Source: Pseudomonadota bacterium | GTDB taxonomy: Bacteria; Pseudomonadota; Alphaproteobacteria; UBA2136; JAPKEQ01 | Reading direction: 5' to 3' | Length of the DNA: 64,000 nucleotides | Assembly: GCA_036141575.1 (NCBI GenBank) | Contig: JAYZXF010000001.1 | Span: 124,001-188,000, forward strand | Part shown: positions 4,932-27,408 of the stretch, piece after piece | Position numbering within the stretch: the stretch's first letter is position 1 | Layout: each line of letters begins with the position of its first letter | Program-made: the position numbers and the translations under genes | Notes under the pieces: model-generated | Seen by the model: the letters and a program-made list of their open reading frames with translations, nothing else | What the model was told of the DNA's origin: nothing | Databases searched by the model: none

Positions 4932-6656
4932 ATGAAAGAATCATTACTCCTCAACGTACTTTTAGAAGCAGGGCTGTTTTTAGCGTTGGCTGCACTTATT
5001 ATTCCACTGCTTAAACGTTTTAAAGTGCCGTCCGTACTGGGGTATTTGATTGCAGGCGTGGTGTTCGGCCCTTATGGCGTTGGAGCTCTTGCTGAGTATT
5101 CGCCTTTCTTCTCTCATTTTGCTCTGACTGAGACTGCTCATGTAAAAATGCTCGCAGAGCTTGGTATTATTATGCTGTTATTTGTGATTGGGCTGGAACT
5201 TACACCGCAACGTTTGTGGCAAATGCGTAATCTGGTTTTTGGACTTGGGAGTGCACAAGTTTTAACGAGCGCATTTGTGATTGGGGGAATTGCCTTCCTT
5301 TGGGGGAACAGTGCTCAGCTTTCTATTCTTCTTGGTCTTGGGCTTTCTCTCTCATCTACGGCCATTATTATTCAATGGATTCATGAGAAGAAGATGTTTG
5401 CTGCGCCCGCTGGGCGTGCGAGTTTTAGTATTTTGCTTTTACAAGATTTAGCCGTGATTCCAATTTTATTCCTTCTGACTATTTTTGCTGCTGAGCCAGG
5501 CGAAAACATGTTTTTATTCACAACTAAATCTCTTGCTATTATGGCGCTGACAGCGACGGCAATGTACGTGATTGGTCAACGTATCTTGAGGCCCGTCTTT
5601 GCCTTTGCAAACCAGTATGGCGGGCATGAAGTGTTTATGGCGCTGAGTTTACTGACTGTTGTGGTAAGTGCATCTGTTGCTGGTTTTGCAGGGATGTCTA
5701 TGGCATTGGGTGCTTTTATTGCAGGCTTACTTCTGGCTGATACAGAGTACCGTCATGAAATTACGGCGATGGTTGTACCGTTCAAAGGGATGCTTCTCGG
5801 GATTTTCTTCTTATCTTTTGGTATGAGCATTAACCTTGATTTTATCGCGGAAAAACCAGTTTGGCTTGGGCTCTCTGTTGTTGGCCTTATGATGATTAAG
5901 GCTGCAATCATTTACCCACTTTGCAGAATGTGGAAGCAGAGTAAGGCTGTTGCTGCTGAATCTGCAATTATGCTCTCTCAAGCTGGTGAGTTTGGCCTTC
6001 TTGTTATTGGTTCTGCGCTGGCGCTTGGTCTTGTAGCAGAAAATGTTGGACAGTTCATGCTGATTACAGTTGGTCTCACAATGTTTGTGACGCCACTTAT
6101 TACGGTGCTTTCTCGCAAAGTTGGAGCATGGGTAGAGGTCAGAGAAGTTGAAGAAGAAAATATCTTTGTCCCAGAAGAAGTGAAAAAAGGCCATATCGTC
6201 ATTTTTGGCTTTGGACGTATGGGTCAAACTGTCGCTGAAATCCTGTGCAGAGAGGGGATGAAGGTTGTTGGTTTTGATAATGATGCTGCAAAAATACATA
6301 AACTGAAATCAACCAGCTACCCTGTGTACTTTGCGGACTCTAGTAAGAAAACGACGGTTATGGCTGCTGAGTTAGAACATGCATTGTGTGCAGTGATTAC
6401 GTTAGATGAACCTGTTGCAACCAAAAAGCTTGCTAAAAATATTCGTAAGCTTCATCCGAACTTACCGATTTATGCTCGTGCAGAGGATGAGAGCGAGGAA
6501 GCCATTCTAGAAAAAATCCCATACGTAGATGCAGTTCCTGAGCATTTGGCTGTGAGCCAAGGCCTTGCTGAAAAAGTACTTGAAGAGGCTGGCTATGACG
6601 CGGATGAAGCTCATAGTATGGCGATGCTTTCTCAAACAAAACAGAATGTAAAATAA
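4932..6656 (+). CDS. Kef-type monovalent cation:proton antiporter with RCK/TrkA-N domain
   Basis: An inner-membrane CPA2-family antiporter, likely exporting K+ in exchange for H+. It has 574 residues. About a dozen hydrophobic segments fill residues 1-390, including the KefB/C-type stretch GLELTPQRLWQMRN and the helix LGLSLSSTAIIIQ. A cytosolic TrkA-N (RCK) domain follows from about residue 418 with the nucleotide motif GFGRMG (VIFGFGRMGQTVAE), typical of ligand-gated K+ efflux systems. No ancillary KefF/KefG oxidoreductase gene is adjacent. The gene is monocistronic: it is divergent from phrB and followed by a strong terminator. Assignment to KefB, KefC or YbaL cannot be settled by eye. Confidence 0.93.
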   Translation: MKESLLLNVLLEAGLFLALAALIIPLLKRFKVPSVLGYLIAGVVFGPYGVGALAEYSPFFSHFALTETAHVKMLAELGIIMLLFVIGLELTPQRLWQMRNLVFGLGSAQVLTSAFVIGGIAFLWGNSAQLSILLGLGLSLSSTAIIIQWIHEKKMFAAPAGRASFSILLLQDLAVIPILFLLTIFAAEPGENMFLFTTKSLAIMALTATAMYVIGQRILRPVFAFANQYGGHEVFMALSLLTVVVSASVAGFAGMSMALGAFIAGLLLADTEYRHEITAMVVPFKGMLLGIFFLSFGMSINLDFIAEKPVWLGLSVVGLMMIKAAIIYPLCRMWKQSKAVAAESAIMLSQAGEFGLLVIGSALALGLVAENVGQFMLITVGLTMFVTPLITVLSRKVGAWVEVREVEEENIFVPEEVKKGHIVIFGFGRMGQTVAEILCREGMKVVGFDNDAAKIHKLKSTSYPVYFADSSKKTTVMAAELEHALCAVITLDEPVATKKLAKNIRKLHPNLPIYARAEDESEEAILEKIPYVDAVPEHLAVSQGLAEKVLEEAGYDADEAHSMAMLSQTKQNVK

Positions 6657-6687
6657 GCTAAGGCCCCTACAATACAGGGGCCTTAGC
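6657..6687. terminator. Bidirectional terminator after the antiporter gene
   Basis: A 12-bp perfect stem, GCTAAGGCCCCT with AGGGGCCTTAGC, has a 7-base loop and is followed by a T-rich tail. It sits between convergent genes. Confidence 0.88.
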
Positions 6688-6697
6688 TTTTATTCGA

Positions 6698-7081
6698 TTA
6701 GGCGGTAAAGCCCATGGCGCGCAGTTCTGCGTCGCTCAGCTCTTCGACAACCAGGCTGTCAGGATCACCGAAAACCGTGAGTTCTGCCTCTTCTGCCTGG
6801 CGGATGATGACCTGGTTCGAGGGAGCAGGGTCGGCGCTTCCCGTGTATTGGGTCAGCACTTCATCAAATGTATCGCTGTCTGCGGGGCCATAACGGCGAA
6901 TGCCGCCAACCTCGCTGCAACAGACATTTCCGCTCATCGGGTGCATTTGGAACACCAGTTTGTATTTCCGTTCCCGACCATTGAAAGCCGGAATTTTGTG
7001 TTGCGTCAGGTAGGTGCCTTCCACAACAAAGCCTGCAATTTTTCCTTCGGTCAGAGCGGTCATTGCATTTGCAATGGTCAT
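6698..7081 (-). CDS. Hypothetical protein, 127 aa
   Basis: No recognised family. The chosen start is ATG at 7081 (MTIANAMTALTEGK) because AAGGAG lies 8 bases upstream; an in-frame start 90 bases earlier lacks such a site. The protein is soluble, with a predicted beta-rich first half containing a Cys-Cys pair (GNVCCSEVGG) and an acidic C-terminus (VVEELSDAELRAMGF). By eye its base composition is more GC-rich than its neighbours, which suggests a different origin. It is a single gene between the antiporter terminator and the VirB11-like gene. Confidence 0.7.
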   Translation of the reverse strand: MTIANAMTALTEGKIAGFVVEGTYLTQHKIPAFNGRERKYKLVFQMHPMSGNVCCSEVGGIRRYGPADSDTFDEVLTQYTGSADPAPSNQVIIRQAEEAELTVFGDPDSLVVEELSDAELRAMGFTA

Positions 7082-14656: not shown

Positions 14657-17650
14657 TTATTTAATATGCCCCATAACGTCTTCAACGCTAGTAGCTTTAA
14701 TGTATTCTGCTGGGTTTTCGGTAGCTGCAATTTCATCAAAGTGCTTCTCACCACAACGGATTTTTGCACCTTCTTGGTGACGTAAGTCATCCCACCAATT
14801 GCTACCTTTTGTCTCCACAACGAAATACAGCTTCTCGTGTCCATCATCTTCAATTAAAACCGCCCAGTCGGGATTGTAGGAACCCAATGGCGTTGGCACT
14901 TTGAACCATGCAGGTAGTTTGGCATAAACCTTAACTGCTTCATTAGTCTCCAAATCTTCGGCAAACTTCTTCTCTACTCCAGCAGAGTCATAAACTATAT
15001 GTTCATAAACAGATTTCTCGGCTTTAACTGTATCTTTCAGATATCCTTTAAGCTCCTCCTGCTCAAAAAGCTCCTGAGCATAGAACTCTTTATCTCCAAT
15101 TTTGTGATATTTAATACCGTCGACTAGGGCTAACCGCTTAGTACGGTTAATAGCTTCTGATGCCATATCTATGAACTGCTGAGGGTTGCGAGCAAAATCT
15201 TGTATTCTGCGGCTAGCTGTAAGTATTTTAACAATACTATGACGAGTTAACTGCGTTTTATCCTGCAGATCCGTAATAATATCTGGTAATTCGATATCGT
15301 TTTCATGAATTGTTGTAAATCCGGATACAGATGTTTCATCTGCTCTAACACCACCTTTACCAATTTCAATGCCAGCTTTCCTAAATTGAGCTCTTGTTTT
15401 GGTAATAGGAGGACACTTTTCTATAGCTTCAGCAGCATCTGCAATAAGCTTCTCATTGTTAAAGTCCACTCGATAGGTGGTCTTATACTTAATACGATCC
15501 CATAGCTGTTTGAAATCATCACCTAAGAATTTTTCTTTGTTCAGGTGGATTGTTTCTCTCTCATTAGCGTTTTTAATATCCAATTTACCAGCAAGCTTCT
15601 TAAGGATATCTTCTACTGCATCTTTTTGATCTTTAAATTCTTCTGGTAGTTCAAAGTCCCCAGATTTCAATGCTTCACGAAGAGTGTCTTGAACCTTACC
15701 CTTATTATTAACAAAGCCTTGAGTATTTAAGAACTTCCAGATTTTTTCAGATGTATCAACACCAAGAGGAGAAAGTGAACCGTCTTCTTTTTGCACTTGA
15801 ATAGCTGCGAACTGATGTCTTTCAACAATGCCAAAGCGGATGCCAGTGTCAGCTTCAATCTCTTTTTGAAGATTTTCTGCGAACTGTTCATAACCTTCAG
15901 AAGCAATAACCGTTAGGGTATTAATATCGTTTCCACGCAAACGCAAACCTTCTTGGTTCACACATAAACGCAAGCCACGACCGATTGTTTGACGACGCTC
16001 ACGTTCAGTGCCTATTTCACGCAGTGAGCATATTTGGAACACATTCGGATTATCCCAACCTTCCTTCAGGGCTGAGTGAGAGAAGATGAACTTCAGCTTG
16101 GTATCAAAGCTCAGCAGTTTCTCTTTATCCTTCATAATCAGGTTATAAGCACGCTCTGCATTATCGCGGTTTGATTGATTGTTTTCAGCTGTGTCCGTCC
16201 AGCGCTTTTTCTTATCAATAGAAAAATACCCGTCATGCACTTCTGAAGCATCAATATTCAAATCAACCTTTTCAAATAACGTTTGGTAGGCTGGGCTTTT
16301 AGCCAACTTGCGATATTCTTCTTCAAATATTTTAGCATATTTACCTTCAATCTCATTGCCGTCTTCATCGTAGCTACGGTAATGTTCAACGCTATCAATA
16401 AAGAATAGGCTTAAAACTTTGATGGGCTGTTTATTGCGAGCAAAGTGCATTTCTTTATCAAGATGTTCCTTGATAGTACGGCGGATCATTAAGCGTTTAA
16501 GCTCATCAGGATTTACACCGCCAAGAGCATCGCCGGGGTAAAGAGTTGTATCTGCGCCCGGTGCTTTGACTTCAATAGATTCATTATCTTTACCGCAGGT
16601 GATTGTACCAATCTGTATATTTTCATAGATAGCGCGGTTGGTTATTTGTTCTAAATCGTCACCGTCTTCAACGGTCAGAATTTCAGGTTTGATGTTCTTA
16701 CCACGTTGAACATGTAACTCAACTTTTGCAGTAATAGATCCACGAACGTTTTTAGCTTCAATAAGCTTAACGAAAGGCTTGTTATAACCTCCATCAACTT
16801 CCAATGATGCAACTTCGATCTGCTTCACTAGACCACGCTCATAAGCGTCTACAGCGTCAAGGCGGTAAACCATATGGTATTTATCTGCATGAGTGGCAGA
16901 GTAACGCAATGTGCAAAGTGGGTTCATGGCTTCAAGGGCTTTTTTACCTTGGCCTTTCATACCCCCATCAACTGACTGGGGCTCATCCACAATAATAATT
17001 GGGTTGGTTGCCTTAATCAGGTCAATAGGCTTTTCACCGCCGGTGTTTTCGTTTTCCTTATAAAGGTTATTCACATCTTGTTTGTTAATGGCACCAACGG
17101 TTGTCACCATAATTTGGATATTTGCACTGGTGGCAAAGTTACGAACCTTACCGGGCTTGCTAGAGTCATATTGGAAAAACTCATACCCTTTGGCATTGGG
17201 GTATAAAGCTTCAAAATGCTCACGGGTAATTTCTAGCGTTTTATTTGTACCTTCCTTAATAGCAACAGAAGGCACCACAATAACAAACTTGGTGAAGCCA
17301 TAATTTTTATGCAATTCAAAAATGGTGCGAAGGTAAACGTAGGTTTTACCTGTACCTGTTTCCATTTCAACGGTGAAGTCACCACTGGTTAGGTTTTCAG
17401 AAGGGCGGAGACCGTTTTTAATTTGAATATTACGTAAGTTTTCAGCCAGCTCATCATCAATCAGCTGTAGGCGGTTACCAAAGCCAAGTTCGTTTTCATG
17501 GCTAGAATACTGATAACCAACTTCACCAGTATCTTTTTCCGCCACAACCGTAAATTCTGAGCGAGAGATCTCTTGCCCTTTAAACAAACCAACAACAGAT
17601 TCTATCGCTGCTTGTTGATAATCTAGGTTATCTTCAAAATGTAATTTCAT
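14657..17650 (-). CDS. Type III restriction enzyme Res subunit (helicase-nuclease)
   Basis: ATP-dependent DNA translocase and endonuclease that cuts unmodified DNA together with Mod. It has 997 residues. The SF2 helicase core shows Walker A METGTGKT (96-103), the DExx motif VDEPQ, motif III YSATH and motif VI QTIGRGLRL. The C-terminus carries a PD-(D/E)xK nuclease: NPDWAVL, then VVETKG about 18 residues later, then WW-DDLRHQEGAKI. Every catalytic motif is intact. It lies 15 bases after mod in the same operon, as the last gene of five. By family, Res cuts about 25-27 bases from one of two inversely oriented sites. Confidence 0.92.
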   Translation of the reverse strand: MKLHFEDNLDYQQAAIESVVGLFKGQEISRSEFTVVAEKDTGEVGYQYSSHENELGFGNRLQLIDDELAENLRNIQIKNGLRPSENLTSGDFTVEMETGTGKTYVYLRTIFELHKNYGFTKFVIVVPSVAIKEGTNKTLEITREHFEALYPNAKGYEFFQYDSSKPGKVRNFATSANIQIMVTTVGAINKQDVNNLYKENENTGGEKPIDLIKATNPIIIVDEPQSVDGGMKGQGKKALEAMNPLCTLRYSATHADKYHMVYRLDAVDAYERGLVKQIEVASLEVDGGYNKPFVKLIEAKNVRGSITAKVELHVQRGKNIKPEILTVEDGDDLEQITNRAIYENIQIGTITCGKDNESIEVKAPGADTTLYPGDALGGVNPDELKRLMIRRTIKEHLDKEMHFARNKQPIKVLSLFFIDSVEHYRSYDEDGNEIEGKYAKIFEEEYRKLAKSPAYQTLFEKVDLNIDASEVHDGYFSIDKKKRWTDTAENNQSNRDNAERAYNLIMKDKEKLLSFDTKLKFIFSHSALKEGWDNPNVFQICSLREIGTERERRQTIGRGLRLCVNQEGLRLRGNDINTLTVIASEGYEQFAENLQKEIEADTGIRFGIVERHQFAAIQVQKEDGSLSPLGVDTSEKIWKFLNTQGFVNNKGKVQDTLREALKSGDFELPEEFKDQKDAVEDILKKLAGKLDIKNANERETIHLNKEKFLGDDFKQLWDRIKYKTTYRVDFNNEKLIADAAEAIEKCPPITKTRAQFRKAGIEIGKGGVRADETSVSGFTTIHENDIELPDIITDLQDKTQLTRHSIVKILTASRRIQDFARNPQQFIDMASEAINRTKRLALVDGIKYHKIGDKEFYAQELFEQEELKGYLKDTVKAEKSVYEHIVYDSAGVEKKFAEDLETNEAVKVYAKLPAWFKVPTPLGSYNPDWAVLIEDDGHEKLYFVVETKGSNWWDDLRHQEGAKIRCGEKHFDEIAATENPAEYIKATSVEDVMGHIK

Positions 17651-17665
17651 TTTTAAAGCACCTCC

Positions 17666-19645
17666 TTACAAGCTGCGTACATGGTCAATGCCATTTTGGG
17701 AAAGGATGGCGGCCATGTTGGTTTTGGCCACATCATCACGGAAGGCAGAGTCTTTAAAGAACACGTGAGTTTCTAGCACTTTAACGCCCAGTGTTTCTTT
17801 CAGCTCTTTTTGCCAAGCCACAACGCCTGCAGCAAGTTCTTCCACTTGGTCATTTGTAATCAAATCATCTAAGCAGGTAATGATTTTACCATAACCAATG
17901 CTGTAAACATTCTTGCCCGCAATCTCTCTACTTTCAATCGGGGTGGTTAGGTCTACACCACGTTTAAGCAGCAGTTCGTAAAGAACATCCTGCTCCGTAC
18001 GTCCTTCAACAAGGTGTTCTTGGTGTTCTAGCAGGCTTGTTTCCAAGTCCTTACGGTCTGGGTTCCACGCTTTAATGTTAGAGCTGGCCAGTTTGAAAAC
18101 CTTAAAACCTAAATCGCCATCATAATCAGGATTTTCATCCTTGATTTTCTTTGCCGCGCGGCGGATGCGATCTTTGGATAAGTCAGAAATTGTTTTATAT
18201 CCGGCTTTAAAAGCTTCTGTTTTTTCATCTGTAAGCTCAGGCAACTGAACTGAAATATGCCTACGGCTTTCTTTGTTTTCTGAGTTCAACTGCATTACTG
18301 CATGTGCGGTTGTTCCTGATCCTGCGAAAAAATCCATTATAATATCACTGGAATTACTTCCAATAACTAATAAATCCGAAATAAATGGTACTGGCTTAGG
18401 GCCATCAAACAGCTTTTTACCTAACAAATCTTTTAACTTAGTAGTTGCAGTGCTAGTGCTATAATCTGACTTGTAAAAAACTGATTTAGGCTTTTTCGTT
18501 GGTAAGTCACCGAGTTGAGGACGTTGTTTGCGATAGAACTGCCAACCATTTGAAGTATGCTTCAAAATTAAGTTGTGCTTGCTATCATTAAAAGTATTTT
18601 TACTCCAATACCAACTCAGCTCTTCTCCTGATGGGTTTAATGGCAATATCTCCACATCAGTATCTACTAAAGGTCTATTATCTTCAGTAATGTAAAACTC
18701 TTTAGTTTGCTCGTTGAGGAAAATTGGATACCACAAGTTAGGGCGTTTTTCTCTTGGAGCATTTACGCCCGTAGCACGAAGGTTGTCGGCCTCTTTATAT
18801 AAGCCATACTCATCTTCAAGCCAGTTTTTAGCTATTTCTTCTTCATCAACAGAAAAGTGGTTTAACGTACAGTCATCTTTTGACTTAAGACATACAATCA
18901 CATATTCATGAGTTTCTGCGAATCCATAAGCATCTTGGTTACCTTTTAAATTCATGATTACAGGGAAGTTTCCAAGTACATTTTCCTCACCAAAAATTTC
19001 GGTACATATTTCTTGCAAATTAATTACTTCATTTTCATCAATGGAGATAAATATTACACCGTCTTGGCGTAACAAGCTCTTTGCCAGCTTCAATCGCGGG
19101 TACATCATATTCAGCCAATTGGTGTGCTTTCGCCCTCCAGTTTCTGTGTTTGATGTAAATTTCAGACCTTCATCATCTTTTTGACCGGTGTATTTCAAAT
19201 ACGTATCTAGATTATCTTGGAATTTATCTGGATAAACAAACTCTTTCCCTGTGTTATAAGGCGGGTCGATATAAATCATCTTCACCTTGTTTGCGTAGCT
19301 TTTTTGCAGAAGCTTCAACACTTCAAGATTATCACCTTCAATAAACAAGTTTTGGGTTGTATCCCAATCCACGCTTTCTTCGGGGCAAGGCAGAAGCGTA
19401 CCAAGGGATGGTGTTAGGGCAATTTGACGGGCTTGTTTTTTACCATGCCAGTTCAGGCCGTATTTTTCTTCACCTTCATCTAGTACTTTCAGGTCTCCCA
19501 GAAGCTGACGCAGCGTATCAAAATTCACACCGTTCTCGGTAAATGCATCCGGGAACAGCTCTTTTAGCTGTTCTACATTCTCCTGCACGATATCGGCAGA
19601 TGCACCGTCTTGTAATTCTACTTTTTTCATAGCTACTTCTGTCAT
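17666..19645 (-). CDS. Type III DNA methyltransferase Mod (N6-adenine, beta class)
   Basis: Methylates adenine in a short asymmetric site and gives the R-M complex its specificity. It has 659 residues. The beta-class motif order is seen: motif IV DPPY (127-130) first, a long target-recognition region (about residues 220-410), then the SAM motif MDFFAGSGTTAHAV. The C-terminal part fits type III Mod rather than orphan methyltransferases. The ATG at 19645 has GAAGGG upstream; an ATG 15 bases later is an alternative. The gene sits between the DUF4391 gene (17 bases upstream) and res (15 bases downstream). The recognition site cannot be read from the sequence. Confidence 0.93.
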   Translation of the reverse strand: MTEVAMKKVELQDGASADIVQENVEQLKELFPDAFTENGVNFDTLRQLLGDLKVLDEGEEKYGLNWHGKKQARQIALTPSLGTLLPCPEESVDWDTTQNLFIEGDNLEVLKLLQKSYANKVKMIYIDPPYNTGKEFVYPDKFQDNLDTYLKYTGQKDDEGLKFTSNTETGGRKHTNWLNMMYPRLKLAKSLLRQDGVIFISIDENEVINLQEICTEIFGEENVLGNFPVIMNLKGNQDAYGFAETHEYVIVCLKSKDDCTLNHFSVDEEEIAKNWLEDEYGLYKEADNLRATGVNAPREKRPNLWYPIFLNEQTKEFYITEDNRPLVDTDVEILPLNPSGEELSWYWSKNTFNDSKHNLILKHTSNGWQFYRKQRPQLGDLPTKKPKSVFYKSDYSTSTATTKLKDLLGKKLFDGPKPVPFISDLLVIGSNSSDIIMDFFAGSGTTAHAVMQLNSENKESRRHISVQLPELTDEKTEAFKAGYKTISDLSKDRIRRAAKKIKDENPDYDGDLGFKVFKLASSNIKAWNPDRKDLETSLLEHQEHLVEGRTEQDVLYELLLKRGVDLTTPIESREIAGKNVYSIGYGKIITCLDDLITNDQVEELAAGVVAWQKELKETLGVKVLETHVFFKDSAFRDDVAKTNMAAILSQNGIDHVRSL

Positions 19646-19662
19646 TGTTATTTGCCCTTCTT

Positions 19663-20415
19663 CTATAACTCTTGTTTAAGACCGTTTATTTGGTCTGCAA
19701 TTTTTTTAATATGGGTGGTTAGGTCTACCTGTCTGCCCATCTGCTTTTCTTTTTTAAGCTTATTTTGAAGTTCTGACTTTTCTTGTTCCAACTTCTCAAG
19801 CTCTCGTAATTTTTCTATACGGCTTTGCGCGTCGCTGCCTTTGGTTACATTGTAGCTGCCTGTTTGCTCTGCAGCGTTTAAGGAAATTACTAAATTCTTT
19901 ACATCTGTATAGAAGGCGTAGAAGTTCACGAAAGACAAGTTTTTTAAGCTTAAACCTGCCATAAACTGCTGCTGCACTTTATTTGGTTTGCTTGGGTTAA
20001 ACCACTCGGTTAGCCAGCCTTCTTCTACCACCCATTTGGTTTTATCTGCTTGGTTAATACGTTTATCAGCCACACTTAATGCAATATCATCACCATGGGT
20101 AAATATGATTATAATTGGATATGGAATAGCCTTATGCACAAAAGATGAAATACGCTTCATTCGGGTGGCATTGGTGAGGTCTATTTGCAATATGGCAACT
20201 TCGTCATACTCACGTTCAGCATCCTTGAAAGGTTCTATATTTACGGTGCTTGGCTTTAGGGTGTATAGCCAGCGGATTTTATCAATATCGTCCTTTAAGG
20301 CTTTTTTATCGGTAATATCAAGGTCAGCATTCTCTTGAAAAAGCTTTTTAAACAGAGTTTTGTTTAGGTAGCATTTTTCTGGTATGCCTAAGACATTTAA
20401 AAACGTCTGAACCAT
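19663..20415 (-). CDS. DUF4391-type protein
   Basis: A 250-residue protein resembling the DUF4391 family, whose members are typically found between an SNF2-type helicase gene and type III mod/res genes. It begins with a short helical part and a strand-rich central domain (PIPYPIIIIFTHGDDIALSV, then WVVEEGWLTEWF). It ends in a coiled coil from about residue 200 (LEKLEQEKSELQNKLKKEK). Biochemical function is unknown to me. Its start overlaps the helicase stop (TAATG), so translation is coupled. The conserved position argues for a structural or loading role in the complex; this is inference. Confidence 0.72.
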   Translation of the reverse strand: MVQTFLNVLGIPEKCYLNKTLFKKLFQENADLDITDKKALKDDIDKIRWLYTLKPSTVNIEPFKDAEREYDEVAILQIDLTNATRMKRISSFVHKAIPYPIIIIFTHGDDIALSVADKRINQADKTKWVVEEGWLTEWFNPSKPNKVQQQFMAGLSLKNLSFVNFYAFYTDVKNLVISLNAAEQTGSYNVTKGSDAQSRIEKLRELEKLEQEKSELQNKLKKEKQMGRQVDLTTHIKKIADQINGLKQEL

Positions 20416-23400
20416 TATTCAGCCTCCCGTATAATTAGGTAGCTGATAACTTCGAAATCTTCCAATGCAGAGAAGTGATCCTGCGTTAAAGAGGTGCCAC
20501 CACGGCTGAACAGGCTTTCCACGCCTTTTTCTTCAGTTTTACCAACAACGGACTGAATAGCAGCTTCTAGCATAAACTGATATGTACCCATATCTTTGCC
20601 GTCACGGGTGGCTTTGTTAAGACTATCGATAGCTTTAACATCTAGCTCTTTATTGAGTGAGCATAGTTTTTTGAAAATATCGAGGCTCTTTTTACCCTGC
20701 AGGTGGTTGAAAACAACATCACCATTTTCAGCAACATAAACAATGTAATACGGTGCTAGGGCGTAGTTAGCATCAAACTCAACTTTGCCGTGGATGTCTT
20801 TCAGGCAGAAGATTGTGCCAGCAACAAACTCTTTGTTTGGATTTTGAACCGCTGCATAAAATCCGGTTGGTGATTTTTCTAGTTGTTCAAGGTTTTCTTT
20901 CATATAGCTTGATAAATCCATACGGAAGTCGTTTAAAGTCATATCGGTAATAGATACGCTACCATCCATGTCTTCAAGGTCTAGAACGGACTCCTGCAGT
21001 TGCTTCATTTGTTTGCGGCGGTAGTCTAAATCGTTCATCTGCTTATCTTTGTCATACTCGATGACGTTTTCTTCGCCGGTAGCAGAAATATCAAGCAGAA
21101 CCATGCGTCCACTTACACGGGCTTCAAGGTTGATATACTCATCCAGCTCCATATTTGGCCAGAAGTTAGCCAGCTGAATAGATTTATTTGTTGAACCAAG
21201 ACGGTCAACGCGACCAAATCTCTGAATAATACGAACTGGGTTCCAGTGGATATCGTAGTTAATAAGCATATCGCAGTCCTGCAGGTTTTGGCCTTCAGAA
21301 ATACAGTCTGTTGCGATTAGAATATCAATTTCAGTTGTGGATTCAGGGGCGATTTTCTCACGTTCTTTTGAGACCGGTGAAAAGTGCGTTAGAACGTTGT
21401 TCAGATCCTTGTTAAGTCCTTTAATAGTGCATTGGTTTGTACCGCTACCAGTAACCAAAGCTGAGTGCAACCCAAGCTCAGATAGCGCCCACTTAGAAAT
21501 GTTTTCGTAGATATATTCAGCAGTATCTGAGAATGCGGTAAAAATAATAGCCTTCTTATTGCCATCATTTATTGGGGAACTAGCTTTTTGCTGAAGAACT
21601 TCTTTTAATTTAAGAAGCTTAGCATCTCTTGCAGGGTTTACGTTATTCGCATCATCAAGGAGTTTCTTAAGCAGGGCTCGGTCTTCTTCAAGGTCTTGCT
21701 TCAAGCGCACAAGGTCCATATCCTGCACCAAAACCTTTACTTTATTACCAATAAGGTAATCTTCCAAGGCTGGATCATCTGTTTGGATATCTTCAATATT
21801 TAGTTCTTCAATTTCCGAACTCTCATGCGCTTCAATTTGATTTAACAAACCATCAATTTTTCCATGTACTTTATCAATAGTTTGAGCGAAAGAGTTGATT
21901 GAGCTTTCCATACGTTTAAGGAGATTAATACGCATTAAGTGAATCAAGCTACGTTCACGGTCAACCTGTTTAAATACAGAGCCGCCTTTCACTTCTTGGT
22001 CATACTTACGGTTATATTCTTCCTTTTTATCCATACGGACATATTCAAGAGGGGCATATGCCGCCAGATTCAATTTTTTAATAGCCATATTGATATCTTT
22101 TAATGGAGGGAACTGCCCGCTGGTATCAATATCAGCTTTAATATTCATTGGTTTTAAGCGTTCAGGAAACTTACCAACTTCTGAAGTGTCGTAATATTTC
22201 TCAATATGCTTACGTGACCTTGCAATTGTCATAAGGTCTAGAAGTTTAAAGTAATCAAAGTTCACACTTTCTAAAAGAGCTTCGGTTTTTCGCTGTCCTT
22301 CAGGCAATTTAAGCCATTTATTGAACTTTTCTTGCGCTCTTTTCAGTGTATTTTCAATGCTGTTAATACCAAACTCAGATAGAACAGTGTCACGACCTTC
22401 AGTTATGAATGCAACTTGGTTTTTAAGGTCGTTCATTCGGCTGTTAACTGGGGTGGCCGATAGCATTAAGACCTTTGTTTTTACGCCAGATCGAATAACT
22501 TGATCCATTAACTTCTGGTAACGAGTTTCACCGCCAGCCTTCGTTCCACTGTTACGGAAGTTATGAGATTCATCAATAACCAAAAGGTCATAATTAGCCC
22601 AGTTAAGTGTTTCTAGGTTTATTTCACCAGACTTACCAGTGCTTCTGCTGAGGTCAGTGTGGTTAAGTACATCATAGTTAAAACGGTCAGCAGCAAGTAA
22701 GTTGCGCTTATCGTTTATTGTGTAAACAGTCCAGTTTTCACGTAGCTTTTTAGGGCAAAGAACAAGGATACGGTCGTTACGAAGCTCGTAATACTTAATA
22801 ACAGCTAGAGCTTCAAAAGTTTTACCCAAACCAACACTGTCAGCGATGATGCATCCATTGTATTTCTCTAGCTTGTCAATGGCACCCATAACCCCATCAC
22901 GCTGGAACTTATAAAGTTTGTTCCAAACCAAAGTATCCTTAAAACCAGTCTTAGAGCGGATAATGCTGTCTTCGTCTATATCCTCCAAGTATTCTTTGAA
23001 AATATTATAAAGTGTTATGAAATAAATTAAGCTTCCCGGCTTCTCTGATGCTAGGTACTGCAGGTGCTTATCTAGCTCAGCCTTGATATCTTGAACCGCT
23101 TTGGGGGCATTCCAGATTGTATCAAACCAAGATAGAAGTTGCTTTGTATCTTCTGGATTACTAATACCAGTGTTCATCTCAAAGCCGGACGATTTAACTA
23201 CACCAAGACCAGAAGCGGTAAAGCTAGAGCTTCCTTGTATCGCAAATGATGATTGGCCATTATCAATATGAAAAATGTTTTGCCCTATAGGCGCATGACT
23301 AACTTTAACTTGAATATTTTTTGACAACCAAGAAGCACAATCCTTAGCTACACGGGATTGATTAAGTACGTTTTTAAGACGGATTTCATTCTCAGTACCG

Positions 23401-23597
23401 GCTAAAGCAACGAGAGAATTATCATCCCAACGAGAAAGAAGGAGCCTTAAACTATCAATATTACTCAGCTCCTTCTTCAAAGCAGAAAACCCATAAATCG
23501 AAAACAAACCAGAAAGAATAGAAAGCTTAGCTGAAGAATCTATATGACTCTTCAGTTCAGTAATAACATTTCCGTGGTTTTTGTTATCTAAAAGCAT
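20415..23597 (-). CDS. SNF2-type helicase with N-terminal PLD-like domain
   Basis: A 1060-residue Swi2/Snf2-type DNA translocase. Residues 1-180 look like a phospholipase D-type nuclease fold (SSFAIQGSSSFTASGLG), but the expected HxK catalytic pair is not evident, so it may be a non-cutting binding domain. The motor follows: Walker A SVGLGKT, VIDESHNFRN, LSATPVNSRMNDL, and the C-terminal lobe with FTAFSD, ATDCISEGQNLQ and QRFGRVDRLGS. It is the largest gene of the cassette, starting two bases after the HTH gene stop and overlapping the DUF4391 start. It probably moves on DNA in the same defence complex. Confidence 0.88.
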   Translation of the reverse strand: MLLDNKNHGNVITELKSHIDSSAKLSILSGLFSIYGFSALKKELSNIDSLRLLLSRWDDNSLVALAGTENEIRLKNVLNQSRVAKDCASWLSKNIQVKVSHAPIGQNIFHIDNGQSSFAIQGSSSFTASGLGVVKSSGFEMNTGISNPEDTKQLLSWFDTIWNAPKAVQDIKAELDKHLQYLASEKPGSLIYFITLYNIFKEYLEDIDEDSIIRSKTGFKDTLVWNKLYKFQRDGVMGAIDKLEKYNGCIIADSVGLGKTFEALAVIKYYELRNDRILVLCPKKLRENWTVYTINDKRNLLAADRFNYDVLNHTDLSRSTGKSGEINLETLNWANYDLLVIDESHNFRNSGTKAGGETRYQKLMDQVIRSGVKTKVLMLSATPVNSRMNDLKNQVAFITEGRDTVLSEFGINSIENTLKRAQEKFNKWLKLPEGQRKTEALLESVNFDYFKLLDLMTIARSRKHIEKYYDTSEVGKFPERLKPMNIKADIDTSGQFPPLKDINMAIKKLNLAAYAPLEYVRMDKKEEYNRKYDQEVKGGSVFKQVDRERSLIHLMRINLLKRMESSINSFAQTIDKVHGKIDGLLNQIEAHESSEIEELNIEDIQTDDPALEDYLIGNKVKVLVQDMDLVRLKQDLEEDRALLKKLLDDANNVNPARDAKLLKLKEVLQQKASSPINDGNKKAIIFTAFSDTAEYIYENISKWALSELGLHSALVTGSGTNQCTIKGLNKDLNNVLTHFSPVSKEREKIAPESTTEIDILIATDCISEGQNLQDCDMLINYDIHWNPVRIIQRFGRVDRLGSTNKSIQLANFWPNMELDEYINLEARVSGRMVLLDISATGEENVIEYDKDKQMNDLDYRRKQMKQLQESVLDLEDMDGSVSITDMTLNDFRMDLSSYMKENLEQLEKSPTGFYAAVQNPNKEFVAGTIFCLKDIHGKVEFDANYALAPYYIVYVAENGDVVFNHLQGKKSLDIFKKLCSLNKELDVKAIDSLNKATRDGKDMGTYQFMLEAAIQSVVGKTEEKGVESLFSRGGTSLTQDHFSALEDFEVISYLIIREAE

Positions 23598-23599
23598 GA

Positions 23600-23788
23600 C
23601 TATCTTTGTTTCCTAGCGCTTTGCTCTTGTTCTTTTATCCAGCGATCTATTTCGCTTTTACGAAATCGCCATGAGCCTCCAACCTTAAAGGCTGGGAGCT
23701 TACCTTCGGATGTGAGGCGATAGGCTGTTTTTTCGTTTAATTTGAGGTATTCTGAAACCTCTTTCATTGTCATTATGTCGTTATCCAT
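23600..23788 (-). CDS. Excisionase/AlpA-type MerR-like HTH protein
   Basis: 62 residues forming a single winged-helix of the excisionase family: MTMKEVSEYLKLNEKTAYRL (recognition region), then KLPAFKVGGSWRFRKSEIDRW. Such proteins act as small DNA-binding regulators or as recombination directionality factors. It is the first gene of the defence operon, two bases ahead of the helicase gene, so a regulator of the operon is the likely role. No integrase gene is nearby, which weakens an excision role. Confidence 0.85.
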   Translation of the reverse strand: MDNDIMTMKEVSEYLKLNEKTAYRLTSEGKLPAFKVGGSWRFRKSEIDRWIKEQEQSARKQR

Positions 23789-24205: not shown

Positions 24206-24234
24206 TTGACAATTCTATCCAGGGCATGTATACG
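24206..24234 (+). promoter_or_regulatory. Promoter of the RiPP precursor gene
   Basis: A consensus -35 TTGACA (24206-24211), a 17-base spacer and -10 TATACG (24229-24234). Predicted start near 24241 gives a leader of about 130 bases. Confidence 0.7.
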
Positions 24235-24372
24235 TTTGTCGATTTTAAATCAAGGGGTTTCCCTTGTACCGTTTTAACTGGTGTCTTGTGTACGAGTAAG
24301 CCTATTTCATATGCAGTGAAGTAGGTAATTTAGTAAGGTGTAATAACCTTTTTTGCCAAAGGAGATATAAAT

Positions 24373-24543
24373 ATGGCAAATGAAGCGTCCCAAAAGACTT
24401 TCGAAGTGGATCAAAACCTGCTGCAGGCAACTCCTGCTACTGTGCAGTATGGTCCCGACGAAGCACCTGATGCAACTTTCGAAGTGGATCAAAGCCTGCT
24501 GCAGGCAACCCCTGCAACTGTGCAGTATGGTCCCGACGAATAA
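24373..24543 (+). CDS. RiPP-like precursor peptide with two tandem core repeats, 56 aa
   Basis: A 56-residue peptide: an 8-residue start (MANEASQK), repeat 1 at residues 9-30, the linker APDA, and repeat 2 at 35-56, ending the protein. Each 22-residue repeat begins TFEVDQ, then N or S, then LLQATPATVQYGPDE. The DNA copies (24397-24462 and 24475-24540) differ at only 3 of 66 bases, one of them changing Asn to Ser. There is no Cys; candidate modified residues are Thr, Ser, Gln, Asp and Tyr. AAAGGAGA lies 9 bases before the ATG, and a strong promoter and a downstream terminator-like hairpin suggest high expression. Genes for a HExxH protein and a YcaO protein follow. A conventional long leader is missing, so recognition may lie inside each repeat. 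That this is a RiPP precursor is inference from context. Confidence 0.8.
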   Translation: MANEASQKTFEVDQNLLQATPATVQYGPDEAPDATFEVDQSLLQATPATVQYGPDE

Positions 24544-24573
24544 GCTTCAGGCTTATTCTTGATAGATACAGGT

Positions 24574-24603
24574 GGGGGGCATTTATATATGCCCTCCTTT
24601 TTT
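24574..24603 (+). terminator. Attenuator/terminator between precursor and enzyme genes
   Basis: GGGGGGCAT (24574-24582) pairs with ATGCCCTCC (24589-24597), nine pairs including one G-T, loop of six, followed by six T. Partial read-through would keep the precursor in excess over its enzymes. Confidence 0.8.
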
Positions 24604-24631
24604 GTACATACTCTTAGATATGGAGAATCTC

Positions 24632-25600
24632 ATGATATCTACTCTTGCGACCCCTGTGATTAAAGGCGCATCTTCTTTGAAGGTACGTACTTTGTATAAT
24701 GAAAAAATGTTGGAAAGCTTGGAGAAGCTATTGCTTTCCATTTCAAATGCTGGCATTGATGTCTCTGTAGTTCAGGGATATGTGTCTACTTTGCTACCAA
24801 AGGATTCAATTCCTTCTGATGTTTTTGCTCTTTATCACGCTCTGTTGAGTGCTGTAAAAAGTCAAAATAGGCAGTCTGTTGAACGGTGTTTAATGCAATT
24901 TAGGATTCCAACTCTTGAATTGGCAGGACCAAAATTGATTTTTGGCAGTATTGGTGAATGTCAACGTCATGAAGATGTTGTTCCAGAACTCCCGAACCAT
25001 GAAAAGAAAACCCCTTTGCTCCCAGTGAGTAGGGAGATTGTTCAAAGTTGTTCGGGAGATGCTCAAAAAGCTCTTGCTATTCTTAAACAGTACCACCCTG
25101 AAATGGCTGCTGAAATATTAACCCTCTTGTCGGGGCTCTACTTCTTTGATGATGTTGGGACAGAAGAGCAAATGATTGGTGGTTCTGATGTGCGAGTCTA
25201 TGGAGATATTTTTCTTCGGAGACATAAGGGGGAGATTGATCCTCTTGTTTACTATTGTGAACACATCGTTCATGAAACATCTCACTTGTATCTGCACGCT
25301 CTAATGGCGATGGACCCTTTGGTCCTGAATTCTCCTGATGAACATTACCCCGCGCCAATTCGCTCAGACCTGCGTCCTATGTATGGCGTGTTCCATGCAA
25401 CTTTTGTGCTTAGCAGAATGTGCCAAGTATTTAAAGTGCTTTCTGATCAGTTGTCGGATGAAAATGTGTGTGATGCTCACCAATGTTTTGTGAGACAGTT
25501 TGAGCATGGGTTGAGTACTGTTAATCAGTATGCAGAGCTTACTACACTTGGTCAACATCTTATCATGCAGTATCCAGAAGTTTTGATGAAGGTACGCTAA
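24632..25600 (+). CDS. HExxH-motif putative peptide beta-hydroxylase (aKG-HExxH type)
   Basis: 322 residues from the ATG at 24632, chosen because GGAG lies 6 bases upstream; an ATG 12 bases earlier is possible. The C-terminal half carries HIVHETSHLYLHAL, with HETSH at residues 214-218. It is followed by YPAPIRSDLRPMYGVFHATF, in which H255 could be a third metal ligand. This spacing and the P-x-R-x-D-x-RP stretch match the family annotated as HEXXH-motif peptide-modification proteins, now described as 2-oxoglutarate-dependent peptide beta-hydroxylases rather than proteases. The N-terminal half is helical and unassigned. It sits between the precursor gene and ycaO, so the repeat peptide is the probable substrate. 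A metalloprotease role is the alternative. Confidence 0.78.
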   Translation: MISTLATPVIKGASSLKVRTLYNEKMLESLEKLLLSISNAGIDVSVVQGYVSTLLPKDSIPSDVFALYHALLSAVKSQNRQSVERCLMQFRIPTLELAGPKLIFGSIGECQRHEDVVPELPNHEKKTPLLPVSREIVQSCSGDAQKALAILKQYHPEMAAEILTLLSGLYFFDDVGTEEQMIGGSDVRVYGDIFLRRHKGEIDPLVYYCEHIVHETSHLYLHALMAMDPLVLNSPDEHYPAPIRSDLRPMYGVFHATFVLSRMCQVFKVLSDQLSDENVCDAHQCFVRQFEHGLSTVNQYAELTTLGQHLIMQYPEVLMKVR

Positions 25601-25602
25601 GT

Positions 25603-26562
25603 ATGCCTCTTCCAATTAAAACATTCGTTAGGGCATCTAGGGCTCCTTACGGATATTATATCGCGAAATCAGCCATTGGCCTTAGGTTGGCTGATGGTAA
25701 GCCAATCCACTTGTTTGGCTTTGCGTTTGGGCGTGAGGAAGCTGAAGTTGCTCAGAGGTCTGTATATGAGCTGAAAGAACGCTTTTATGCTTGCTATGAT
25801 GTTTGGAAAGGGGCGTCTGATAAGGGGGAAGTCTTGGATATGCATCATTGGTTGACTCATGAAAAAACAGGGGAGTGCCCTGCACATAACTTGTTATTTC
25901 ACCACGTTACTGCTGGGTCTTCTCCTCTTTTAGATTCTAATGGTATGGCTTGGTACTCAAATTTGAAAGGTGCGTTAAATCATGCAATAATGGAATCTTT
26001 TGAGAGGCACATGTTGAGTCTGGTCTGGTATTATGGGGCTCCTTTATACCTAATTTCTTCGGAGAAGCTTGACGGCGAATACAAAGTTTGTACTTACAGC
26101 ACTCTAAATGAAATTCCTTTCGCCCTCACTGTTGTTGAGCAAGAGGTGGAAGGGATATGGCTTTGTGGCTCTAGTGTTGCACATTGCATGGATGTATCCA
26201 TTGAGAAGTCTAAAAGGGAAGCTTTTATGCTACTCGATGGAATTCTTTTTGGGGAAGATGGTAAATTGAACCCTTCTCACTCTGGTAAGAGGCTTGCATC
26301 ATTAAGTCAAGAAAAGGTGTCCATGTTCAGGTCTTTGCATTTTTCTAAGCTTATTGTGGGAAGGAGGTATTCTTCCCAGAAAAGCTCAGATTTTATGCGA
26401 TGGTTTGATTGTACTGGCATTGATGCTTATAAGCTCAGGTATTGTGCTTTGAAAAATGATGCTGAAGGCGCATTGGTGCGGGTTATTCATCCCAACCTTT
26501 TAAACCCGAAATCTTTGCGGGGAATATGTGGAGATGAAATACCTGATGACCCATTTTGCTAA
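25603..26562 (+). CDS. YcaO-domain protein (ATP-dependent peptide cyclodehydratase-like)
   Basis: YcaO enzymes phosphorylate peptide backbone amides to form azolines, thioamides or amidines. The 319 residues show the family pattern: SNGMAWYSNLKGALNHAIME (112-131), continuing into ESFER with E131 and E134, then CGSSVAHCMD and the second helix SKREAFMLL with E206. The C-terminus ends IPDDPFC rather than the PxPxP tail of azoline-forming YcaOs. No E1-like or ThiF-like partner and no TfuA gene is adjacent, so it is a stand-alone type. The ATG lies two bases after the HExxH gene stop; GAAGG upstream sits inside that gene, giving coupling. Reaction type cannot be told from sequence. Confidence 0.82.
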   Translation: MPLPIKTFVRASRAPYGYYIAKSAIGLRLADGKPIHLFGFAFGREEAEVAQRSVYELKERFYACYDVWKGASDKGEVLDMHHWLTHEKTGECPAHNLLFHHVTAGSSPLLDSNGMAWYSNLKGALNHAIMESFERHMLSLVWYYGAPLYLISSEKLDGEYKVCTYSTLNEIPFALTVVEQEVEGIWLCGSSVAHCMDVSIEKSKREAFMLLDGILFGEDGKLNPSHSGKRLASLSQEKVSMFRSLHFSKLIVGRRYSSQKSSDFMRWFDCTGIDAYKLRYCALKNDAEGALVRVIHPNLLNPKSLRGICGDEIPDDPFC

Positions 26563-26567
26563 TCGAA

Positions 26568-26598
26568 AAAAGCCCTGCGCAGTATGCGTGGGGCTTTT
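26568..26598. terminator. Terminator of the RiPP cluster
   Basis: AAAAGCCC (26568-26575) pairs with GGGCTTTT (26591-26598) with further partial pairing inside. It lies between convergent ycaO and the gene ending at 26602. Confidence 0.82.
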
Positions 26599-26601
26599 AC
26601 T

Positions 26602-26925
26602 TTAATCGGTGGTTACATCTAGCAACAGCTGAGTCTCGATATGTTTATTCCATGTGTTTTTTTTGAATTTTTTGTGGTAAATGTCGATGTTTAGGCTGGA
26701 TGTTTGGGTTGTTTGAATTGCATGATGTATGTTTTCTGCTCTAACATAGTAAATAAGATAATCTTTATCTTCAATAGCTGTTAGGAATGCACTTTCAACT
26801 TTAATACCTTCCTGTTTTAAAGTTTCAAGAACTTCATCTTTTCGCTCATTTAGAGTTTTGCTCCATTCTTTTACGGCATGACGTGAGTTTGGTTTTAACT
26901 CAATGATTGCACATTTTATATCCAT
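26602..26925 (-). CDS. DUF6176-like protein, 107 aa
   Basis: A small soluble protein with a ferredoxin-like alpha/beta pattern: CAIIELKPNSRHAVKEWSKT, then LNERKDEVLETLKQEGIKVE, then a strand with SAFLTAIEDKDYLIYYVRAE. This matches what I recall of DUF6176 (a dimeric-barrel type protein), with function unknown. Unusually AT-rich, like the accessory genes around it. It is convergent with the RiPP genes and is not in their operon. There is no clear RBS before the ATG at 26925. A role in the RiPP pathway cannot be excluded but nothing in the sequence supports it. Confidence 0.6.
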   Translation of the reverse strand: MDIKCAIIELKPNSRHAVKEWSKTLNERKDEVLETLKQEGIKVESAFLTAIEDKDYLIYYVRAENIHHAIQTTQTSSLNIDIYHKKFKKNTWNKHIETQLLLDVTTD

Positions 26926-27051: not shown

Positions 27052-27408
27052 TGGTGGAGACGGCGGGAGTCGAACCCGCGTCCGAAAAAAGTCTACGTGA
27101 GGCTCTCCATGTTCAGTCTTGCTTAAAATTTAAAAATCACACTGGCGCAAAACAACCGATGCAAAGTCGATCCTACTAAAAAATTCGGCTAGGCAGGTAG
27201 GCGCTACTTTTACCTATTCCGTCGAAATGACCGCAGTTTGAACCCAGACGGAAAAGAGCCCAAGTGCGGAAGCTGCGTTAATTAGGCAGCTAGAGCGTAG
27301 TCGTAAGAATTGCCGACTATATACAATTAAACGTTTTTTAAGGCGGGTCGCTCGCCCCTCCACATGCTCCTCTGCGCTTTCCATTCCCGTCGAAACCATG
27401 TCGTCCCC
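27052..27408 (-). ncRNA. ssrA: tmRNA, one-piece (non-permuted)
   Basis: Rescues stalled ribosomes by trans-translation. The minus strand opens GGGGACGACATGGTTTCGAC (27408 down) and closes with the T-arm CGGGTTCGACTCCCG and CGTCTCCACCA (27052). The ends pair as a 7-bp acceptor with one G-T, and CCA is encoded. The tag frame resumes after TATAGTC with GGC and reads GNSYDYALAA then TAA, ending in the canonical YALAA degradation signal (27313-27281). Total length is 357 bases. The order 5' acceptor, tag, 3' acceptor is that of one-piece tmRNA, unlike the permuted two-piece form usual in Alphaproteobacteria. Confidence 0.93.

Follow-up and report, generated by a model that had tools for sequence, protein, structure and literature searches.

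A small, probably mobile RiPP-like gene cluster that pairs an aKG-HExxH family enzyme with a stand-alone YcaO protein

Results

A short peptide gene precedes an HExxH gene and a YcaO gene

The window, a 64,000-nucleotide stretch of an alphaproteobacterial contig (JAYZXF010000001.1, positions 124,001 to 188,000, forward strand), carries what is probably a small, horizontally mobile RiPP cluster, in which an HExxH enzyme would act on the Gln region of a short precursor peptide and a YcaO enzyme on the adjacent backbone amide. Both enzyme families are known, and the pairing of the two is what appears new, in a compact system of three or four genes whose substrate motif is clear. We found no report of an HExxH-YcaO pathway in the open literature, a search that did not cover most subscription journals. 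The first-pass annotation of this DNA had proposed a RiPP-like cluster of precursor, aKG-HExxH and YcaO genes and had set conserved synteny with divergent precursors as its test; such synteny was found in other genomes and supports the proposal.

The precursor peptide gene (24373..24543, + strand) encodes 56 amino acids comprising two 26-residue units. Its strong ribosome-binding site was confirmed: the Shine-Dalgarno sequence AAAGGAG (24358..24364, +) ends 8 nt 5' of the ATG, and comparable purine-rich sites lie upstream of the precursor genes of relatives. The promoter of its own that had been ascribed to this gene found no backing, as the promoter scan gave fewer promoter-like sites than shuffled sequences did (4 versus 7.3); inspection by eye does show a TTGACA-17-TATACG match around position 24208.

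Direct-repeat search resolved the frame into copy 1, TFEVDQNLLQATPATVQYGPDE (24397..24462, +), and copy 2, TFEVDQSLLQATPATVQYGPDE (24475..24540, +). The repeat is 66 nt long with 95% identity, and the start-to-start distance of 78 nt corresponds to 26 codons, in frame. The same unit occurs once in the precursors of a genome of the same order (G006) and of a Chlamydiae metagenome-assembled genome (MAG) and twice in the window, so the window precursor would represent a duplicated cassette. The precursor had earlier been described as leader-poor with two cores; the two repeats stand, but a duplicated cassette is the better reading than two cores, because the unit FE[VL]..LL..P.TVQ(x)Y is retained in full where it occurs as a single copy. 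The two units are near-identical and, judged from this comparison, one unit is the whole conserved element rather than a pair of bare cores. Each unit appears to join a recognition-like segment, FEVDQ-LLQATPA (FE[VL]DxxLLxATPA), directly to a putative target, TVQYGPDE, i.e. TVQ(x)Y. The window precursor contains no ARMD cleavage motif.

A terminator-like hairpin 3' of the precursor gene, already pointed out in the first-pass annotation, was recovered by the hairpin scan in the interval before the HExxH gene (24574..24597, +). Hairpins stood at the same place in all five loci folded, with fold z-scores of -2.1 in the window, -4.1 in G006, -3.0 in the Chlamydiae locus L007, -6.2 in L043 (a Chlamydiota HExxH locus without a YcaO gene) and -1.6 in Variovorax. 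Such an element could allow the precursor mRNA to exceed the enzyme mRNA.

The two enzymes belong to the aKG-HExxH and YcaO families

The first enzyme gene (24632..25600, +) encodes a 322-aa protein of the aKG-HExxH peptide beta-hydroxylase family, as had been proposed, scoring 89.6 bits against NCBIfam TIGR04267 (cut-off 40) and matching the solved structure of ChlH (8s5f) with E=1e-10. Residues H214, E215 and H218 were invariant across 11 relatives. Searches for HExxH relatives found none in viral contigs and none in phages, and the plasmid HExxH proteins that were found lie in other gene contexts.

The coupled YcaO gene (25603..26562, +) starts 2 nt after the HExxH stop and encodes a stand-alone protein of 319 aa with the C-terminus IPDDPFC. 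Its assignment was upheld by a score of 31.3 bits against Pfam PF02624 (gathering cut-off 25.7); relatives scored 44 and 48 bits. Support from sequence for the window YcaO is thus of moderate strength. Residues E56, E59, E131, E134, R135 and E206 align with the Glu-bearing ATP/Mg motifs of canonical YcaO proteins, columns (E56/E59, E131/E134/R135 and E206) that bind ATP. The score against TIGR03604 was 21.3 bits, far under the cut-off of 219.25. When the YcaO profile was compared with solved structures, the best match was the methanogen YcaO MJ1094 (E=5e-4), and McbD followed with E=0.006; MJ1094 is a McrA thioamidation enzyme, which fits the description of TIGR03266. The C-terminal PDDPFC of the window protein corresponds to PPLDPFC in Chlamydiae. 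The AlphaFold model of the YcaO protein (pLDDT 41.5) was too poor to use. No plasmid match and no relatives in viral contigs were found for it.

The gene order is conserved with divergent precursors

Relatives were sought with a two-row profile as well as with the window HExxH protein, which by itself gave no match on genome contigs. Five genomes were found that carry the pair without an E1-like gene: the window genome, G006, the Chlamydiae MAG and two Variovorax genomes. A pair lacking a precursor-like frame was not encountered, a short frame lying just upstream in 5/5 loci. G006, which matches public contig JAPPOO010000020 of an alphaproteobacterial MAG, encodes HExxH and YcaO proteins 35% and 40% identical to those of the window and a 41-aa upstream ORF with the unit MSQSQTTQAATQNSVKPAVFELDSDMLKATPATVQGYSKPQ. 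The Chlamydiae MAG (L007, contig JABDEI010000025) has the same pair and a 43-aa upstream ORF with the unit MDQSITEVEEFEVEQEVSQQVTFEVIENDLLILNKPTVQLYGN. The short ORFs of these three loci have FE[VL]...[LM]L...P.TVQ in common, with 0-1 residue between P and T and a Tyr at most 2 residues after the Gln of TVQ. The window precursor matches those of G006 and of Chlamydiae better than almost any shuffle does (p 0.0005 and p 0.002), the Chlamydiae match being modest. When the unit pattern was run over every locus retrieved at that stage, in six frames, it matched at these three precursor genes only, and a closely related precursor is known from three loci only. The comparison supports the view that the short gene encodes the cognate substrate of the two enzymes beside it.

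In the two Variovorax genomes the HExxH-YcaO pair is more distant and comes with a Gly-Gly precursor (MNQSENVRFEPVSNLPSASDVVAKDLASRRISFMLPEELEMIGGGVVLQFAYDFPEGYA in L010). Genes for HlyD and a C39-peptidase ABC exporter follow the L010 cluster, so export is provided there, and together with the Gly-Gly leader junction they look like the genetics of a secreted RiPP. The earlier statement that no E1-like, TfuA, protease or transporter gene lies nearby held for the window, where none of these was found among the profiled neighbouring ORFs; in Variovorax, exporter genes are present. Given no exporter nearby in the window, the product would be released by a system encoded elsewhere or would act inside the cell. 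That the short gene is unrelated (e.g. regulatory) and that the enzymes modify a cellular protein is the most improbable of the readings weighed here. Protein-modifying stand-alone YcaO enzymes do exist, one thioamidating ribosomal protein uL16 (PMC13063428), and the profiled neighbours in the window include no exporter, but the short-gene motif is kept in synteny across phyla and Variovorax pairs its Gly-Gly precursor with a C39 exporter.

Two of the copies are damaged. In G006 (L004:11358-12465), the YcaO gene is truncated, its C-terminal part missing, and the DUF6176 gene described below is broken, while the precursor and HExxH genes are intact; by these lesions the G006 cluster is a decaying copy, and the system would be dispensable there. 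In Variovorax paradoxus MEDvA23 (L011:6929-7892), the YcaO gene is split over two frames and is intact in its sister L010.

Most other HExxH genes encountered had no YcaO gene alongside. In the HExxH tree, which was poorly resolved, the YcaO-linked enzymes did not form one clade (3 changes), which leaves room for more than one origin of the pairing. Several YcaO-less HExxH genes stand behind strongly repetitive precursors (L023:4693-4986; L027:4623-4916; L031:940-1113; L036:889-1104; on the reverse strand, L026, about 6627-6863 of the locus, and L062), with repeats of the PAGILDTTGATPQTGK, LKEGKPxGP and KVGGK/KMGGKGG types; HExxH genes with multi-repeat precursors are apparently an unexplored family. 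Two Bacteroidota HExxH genes (L008:2895-4940, L012:4397-6411) are preceded by genes for a protein of 306-310 aa, whose type is unknown, and for a short precursor with RSMET[FY]EGE[YV] at its end. On Xenorhabdus plasmids (L057:5833-8162, L058:5572-6943), an overlapping 402-nt gene follows the HExxH gene; it is annotated as a carboxymuconolactone decarboxylase in L057, where an MFS transporter gene also follows.

DUF6176 is a candidate fourth gene

Convergent with the YcaO gene lies a gene for a 107-aa DUF6176 protein (26602..26925, - strand; PF19673, E=2e-26, 92.4 bits versus a gathering cut-off of 27), which had been overlooked and which, from the gene neighbourhoods, appears to belong to the locus as its fourth gene. 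DUF6176 adjoins the HExxH-YcaO pair in 5/5 E1-less loci: it lies just upstream on the other strand in the Chlamydiae MAG (E=9e-25), directly after YcaO in both Variovorax genomes (E=2e-7 and 1e-9), and as the broken copy in G006. In a class-wide sample, 4/372 alphaproteobacterial genomes encoded it, the window genome and G006 being two of them. It also occurs without the pair, in G007, an Acinetobacter plasmid and a Deinococcus plasmid, and is thus linked to HExxH-YcaO but not exclusive to it. The Acinetobacter plasmid gene (L082:4001-4321) encodes a protein 48% identical to that of the window and sits amid toxin-antitoxin genes; our guess is an orphan immunity-like gene. The AlphaFold model of the window protein was of moderate quality (pLDDT 62.7) and gave no significant structural match, and its strand/helix order suggests a ferredoxin-like fold. 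We found no paper on DUF6176 in the open literature. The HExxH-YcaO locus gives this family a functional context; at a guess, the protein would be an accessory or self-protection factor.

The neighbourhoods point to horizontal transfer

The window cluster is flanked on one side by a type III restriction-modification/HKD-Snf2 operon that includes an excisionase-like HTH gene and on the other by the tmRNA gene ssrA (27052-27408), which the first-pass annotation had overlooked. The region at 14657-23788, beside the RiPP cluster, holds type III restriction-modification genes, DUF4391, an HKD+Snf2 helicase gene and a MAD1-like HTH/excisionase gene, and we read it as a defence island close to ssrA. 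A search for an att-like repeat of the ssrA 3' end was negative. The G006 cluster begins about 200 bp past a tRNA-Ala gene and adjoins primase-like and AlpA-like genes (both recognised by eye), and the Chlamydiae cluster has DnaB, integrase and ParA-type genes (ParA by eye) as its neighbours. The neighbours of the Chlamydiae copy (L047:261-6813), of DnaB, integrase and ParA type, resemble by eye a chlamydial plasmid gene set. Such neighbours and the patchy distribution point to horizontal transfer of the cluster. In base composition the cluster does not stand out as foreign, its G+C content being 42.3% against 43.2% for the window, except for DUF6176 (33%).

A Gln-containing element is the likely site of modification

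Every precursor at an HExxH+YcaO locus is free of Cys and has [VILM]Q.{0,2}Y close to its C-terminus, spaced as QFAY in the Variovorax precursors; this motif was chosen after the precursors had been inspected, and a joint probability computed for it overstates the case. Thiazoline formation was rejected, no precursor containing Cys. Members of the aKG-HExxH family hydroxylate Asp, His, Phe, Gln or Pro (PMC12636437, PMC13060819), Gln being the target of PflC and PosC (PMC12636437) and Pro that of PesO (PMC13060819). The Fe/aKG HExxH enzyme of the window would beta-hydroxylate a residue of the TVQ-Y element, most likely Gln, because Gln is found in every precursor, a site assigned from conservation only. 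The YcaO enzyme, having no E1-like partner, could activate a backbone amide of the same element in an ATP-dependent manner, with an oxazoline from the installed hydroxyl, a methyloxazoline from Thr, a thioamide or an amidine as candidate products. No RRE was identified.

One possibility, which we advance tentatively, is a relay, in which the HExxH enzyme beta-hydroxylates Gln or a neighbour and the YcaO enzyme cyclodehydrates the new hydroxyl onto the preceding carbonyl, giving an oxazoline that bears a side chain. The two genes stand 2 nt apart in the window, and several HExxH+YcaO precursors have tails without Cys, Ser or Thr, namely those of Variovorax L010 (GVVLQFAYDFPEGYA), L014 (LPMFRVLLQNEYQG) and L015 (LPDFGVLLQMEYAD). 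L014:574-7027 (Chitinimonas), L015:5321-8922 (Taibaiella) and L016:5359-8783 combine an HExxH gene with genes for an E1-like protein and a SagD-type YcaO, the pair that canonically makes azolines; their precursors end in LPxFxVL[LM]QxEY, and two of these tails (L014, L015) nonetheless lack Ser, Thr and Cys, so the nucleophile must come from somewhere, which suggests that the HExxH enzyme may supply the hydroxyl for ring closure. Chemical precedent exists in the phenyloxazole of YM-216391, which derives from Phe (PMC7231064). However, the Thr conserved in the three closest loci, the window precursor included, could serve directly, and tails free of Ser, Thr and Cys fit other YcaO outcomes too. 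It is likewise a tentative suggestion that the relay operates both in the E1-free DUF6176 clade and in E1-containing HExxH clusters, which would make heterocycle donors of residues beyond Cys, Ser and Thr, in this case Gln. If true, the net change would be -2 Da per site. The system allows a test of whether the nucleophile in YcaO ring closure can come from a hydroxylase, and may reveal a new route by which peptides are made ready for cyclisation.

Since the Thr of TVQ in the window could equally be a methyloxazoline donor, methyloxazoline and thioamide or amidine formation are near-equal rivals. Two independent marks, hydroxylation of the precursor by HExxH and a backbone thioamide or amidine made by YcaO, are possible to the same doubtful degree as the relay. 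They agree with MJ1094 as the best solved relative of the YcaO profile, with the missing E1-like partner and with the L010 core, free of Ser, Thr and Cys; the azole former McbD also matches that profile, though, and no TfuA or other sulfur-delivery gene was found among the profiled neighbours. We consider it rather unlikely that YcaO conventionally converts Thr to methyloxazoline while HExxH carries out an unrelated tailoring step or serves as a leader protease. The precursors of the window, G006, Chlamydiae and Variovorax L011 all keep the Thr of TVQ, and the family member PflC hydrolyses its substrate when the leader is missing (PMC12636437), which would suit a leader protease. The L010 core has no Thr, however, no E1-like partner is present, TIGR03604 is missed by the wide margin given above, and the HExxH protein falls in an oxygenase family, not a peptidase family.

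Oxidative backbone cleavage, in which HExxH would, in the manner of PflC and PosC, cut behind the Gln region and leave an amide-ended peptide, we regard as improbable. It is known for HExxH enzymes in protease-less clusters (PMC12636437) and would also account for the missing protease here, but the precursor has no ARMD motif and the role of YcaO would be left unexplained.

Comparison with known systems

The window HExxH protein resembles ChlH, BpmH, PflC, PosC and PesO (TIGR04267) in its HExxH motif and P-x-R-x-D-x-R-P block, but the described members partner radical SAM, MNIO or Asn-synthetase-like enzymes, and none a YcaO. The L014-L016 loci, like the window, join HExxH and YcaO behind a precursor that lacks Cys and has [VL][LM]?Q(x)Y at its end, and differ from it in their E1-like gene, SagD-type YcaO and precursor motif, LPxFxVLLQxEY. 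Azoline-forming SagD/McbD systems share the YcaO Glu motifs and, through McbD, the profile match; in contrast to them, the window has no E1-like partner or dehydrogenase nearby and a precursor without Cys, and its YcaO tail reads PDDPFC instead of PxPxP, with TIGR03604 far from reached. Closer in layout are the stand-alone YcaO RiPPs bottromycin and streptamidine, where a discrete YcaO protein likewise stands beside a short precursor gene. Streptamidine has a hidden E1/RRE-like partner, AmiB (PMC8442711), whereas the adjacent partners of the window YcaO are the HExxH oxygenase and DUF6176, and these two, not TfuA, flank it, unlike in the YcaO-TfuA thioamidated RiPPs.
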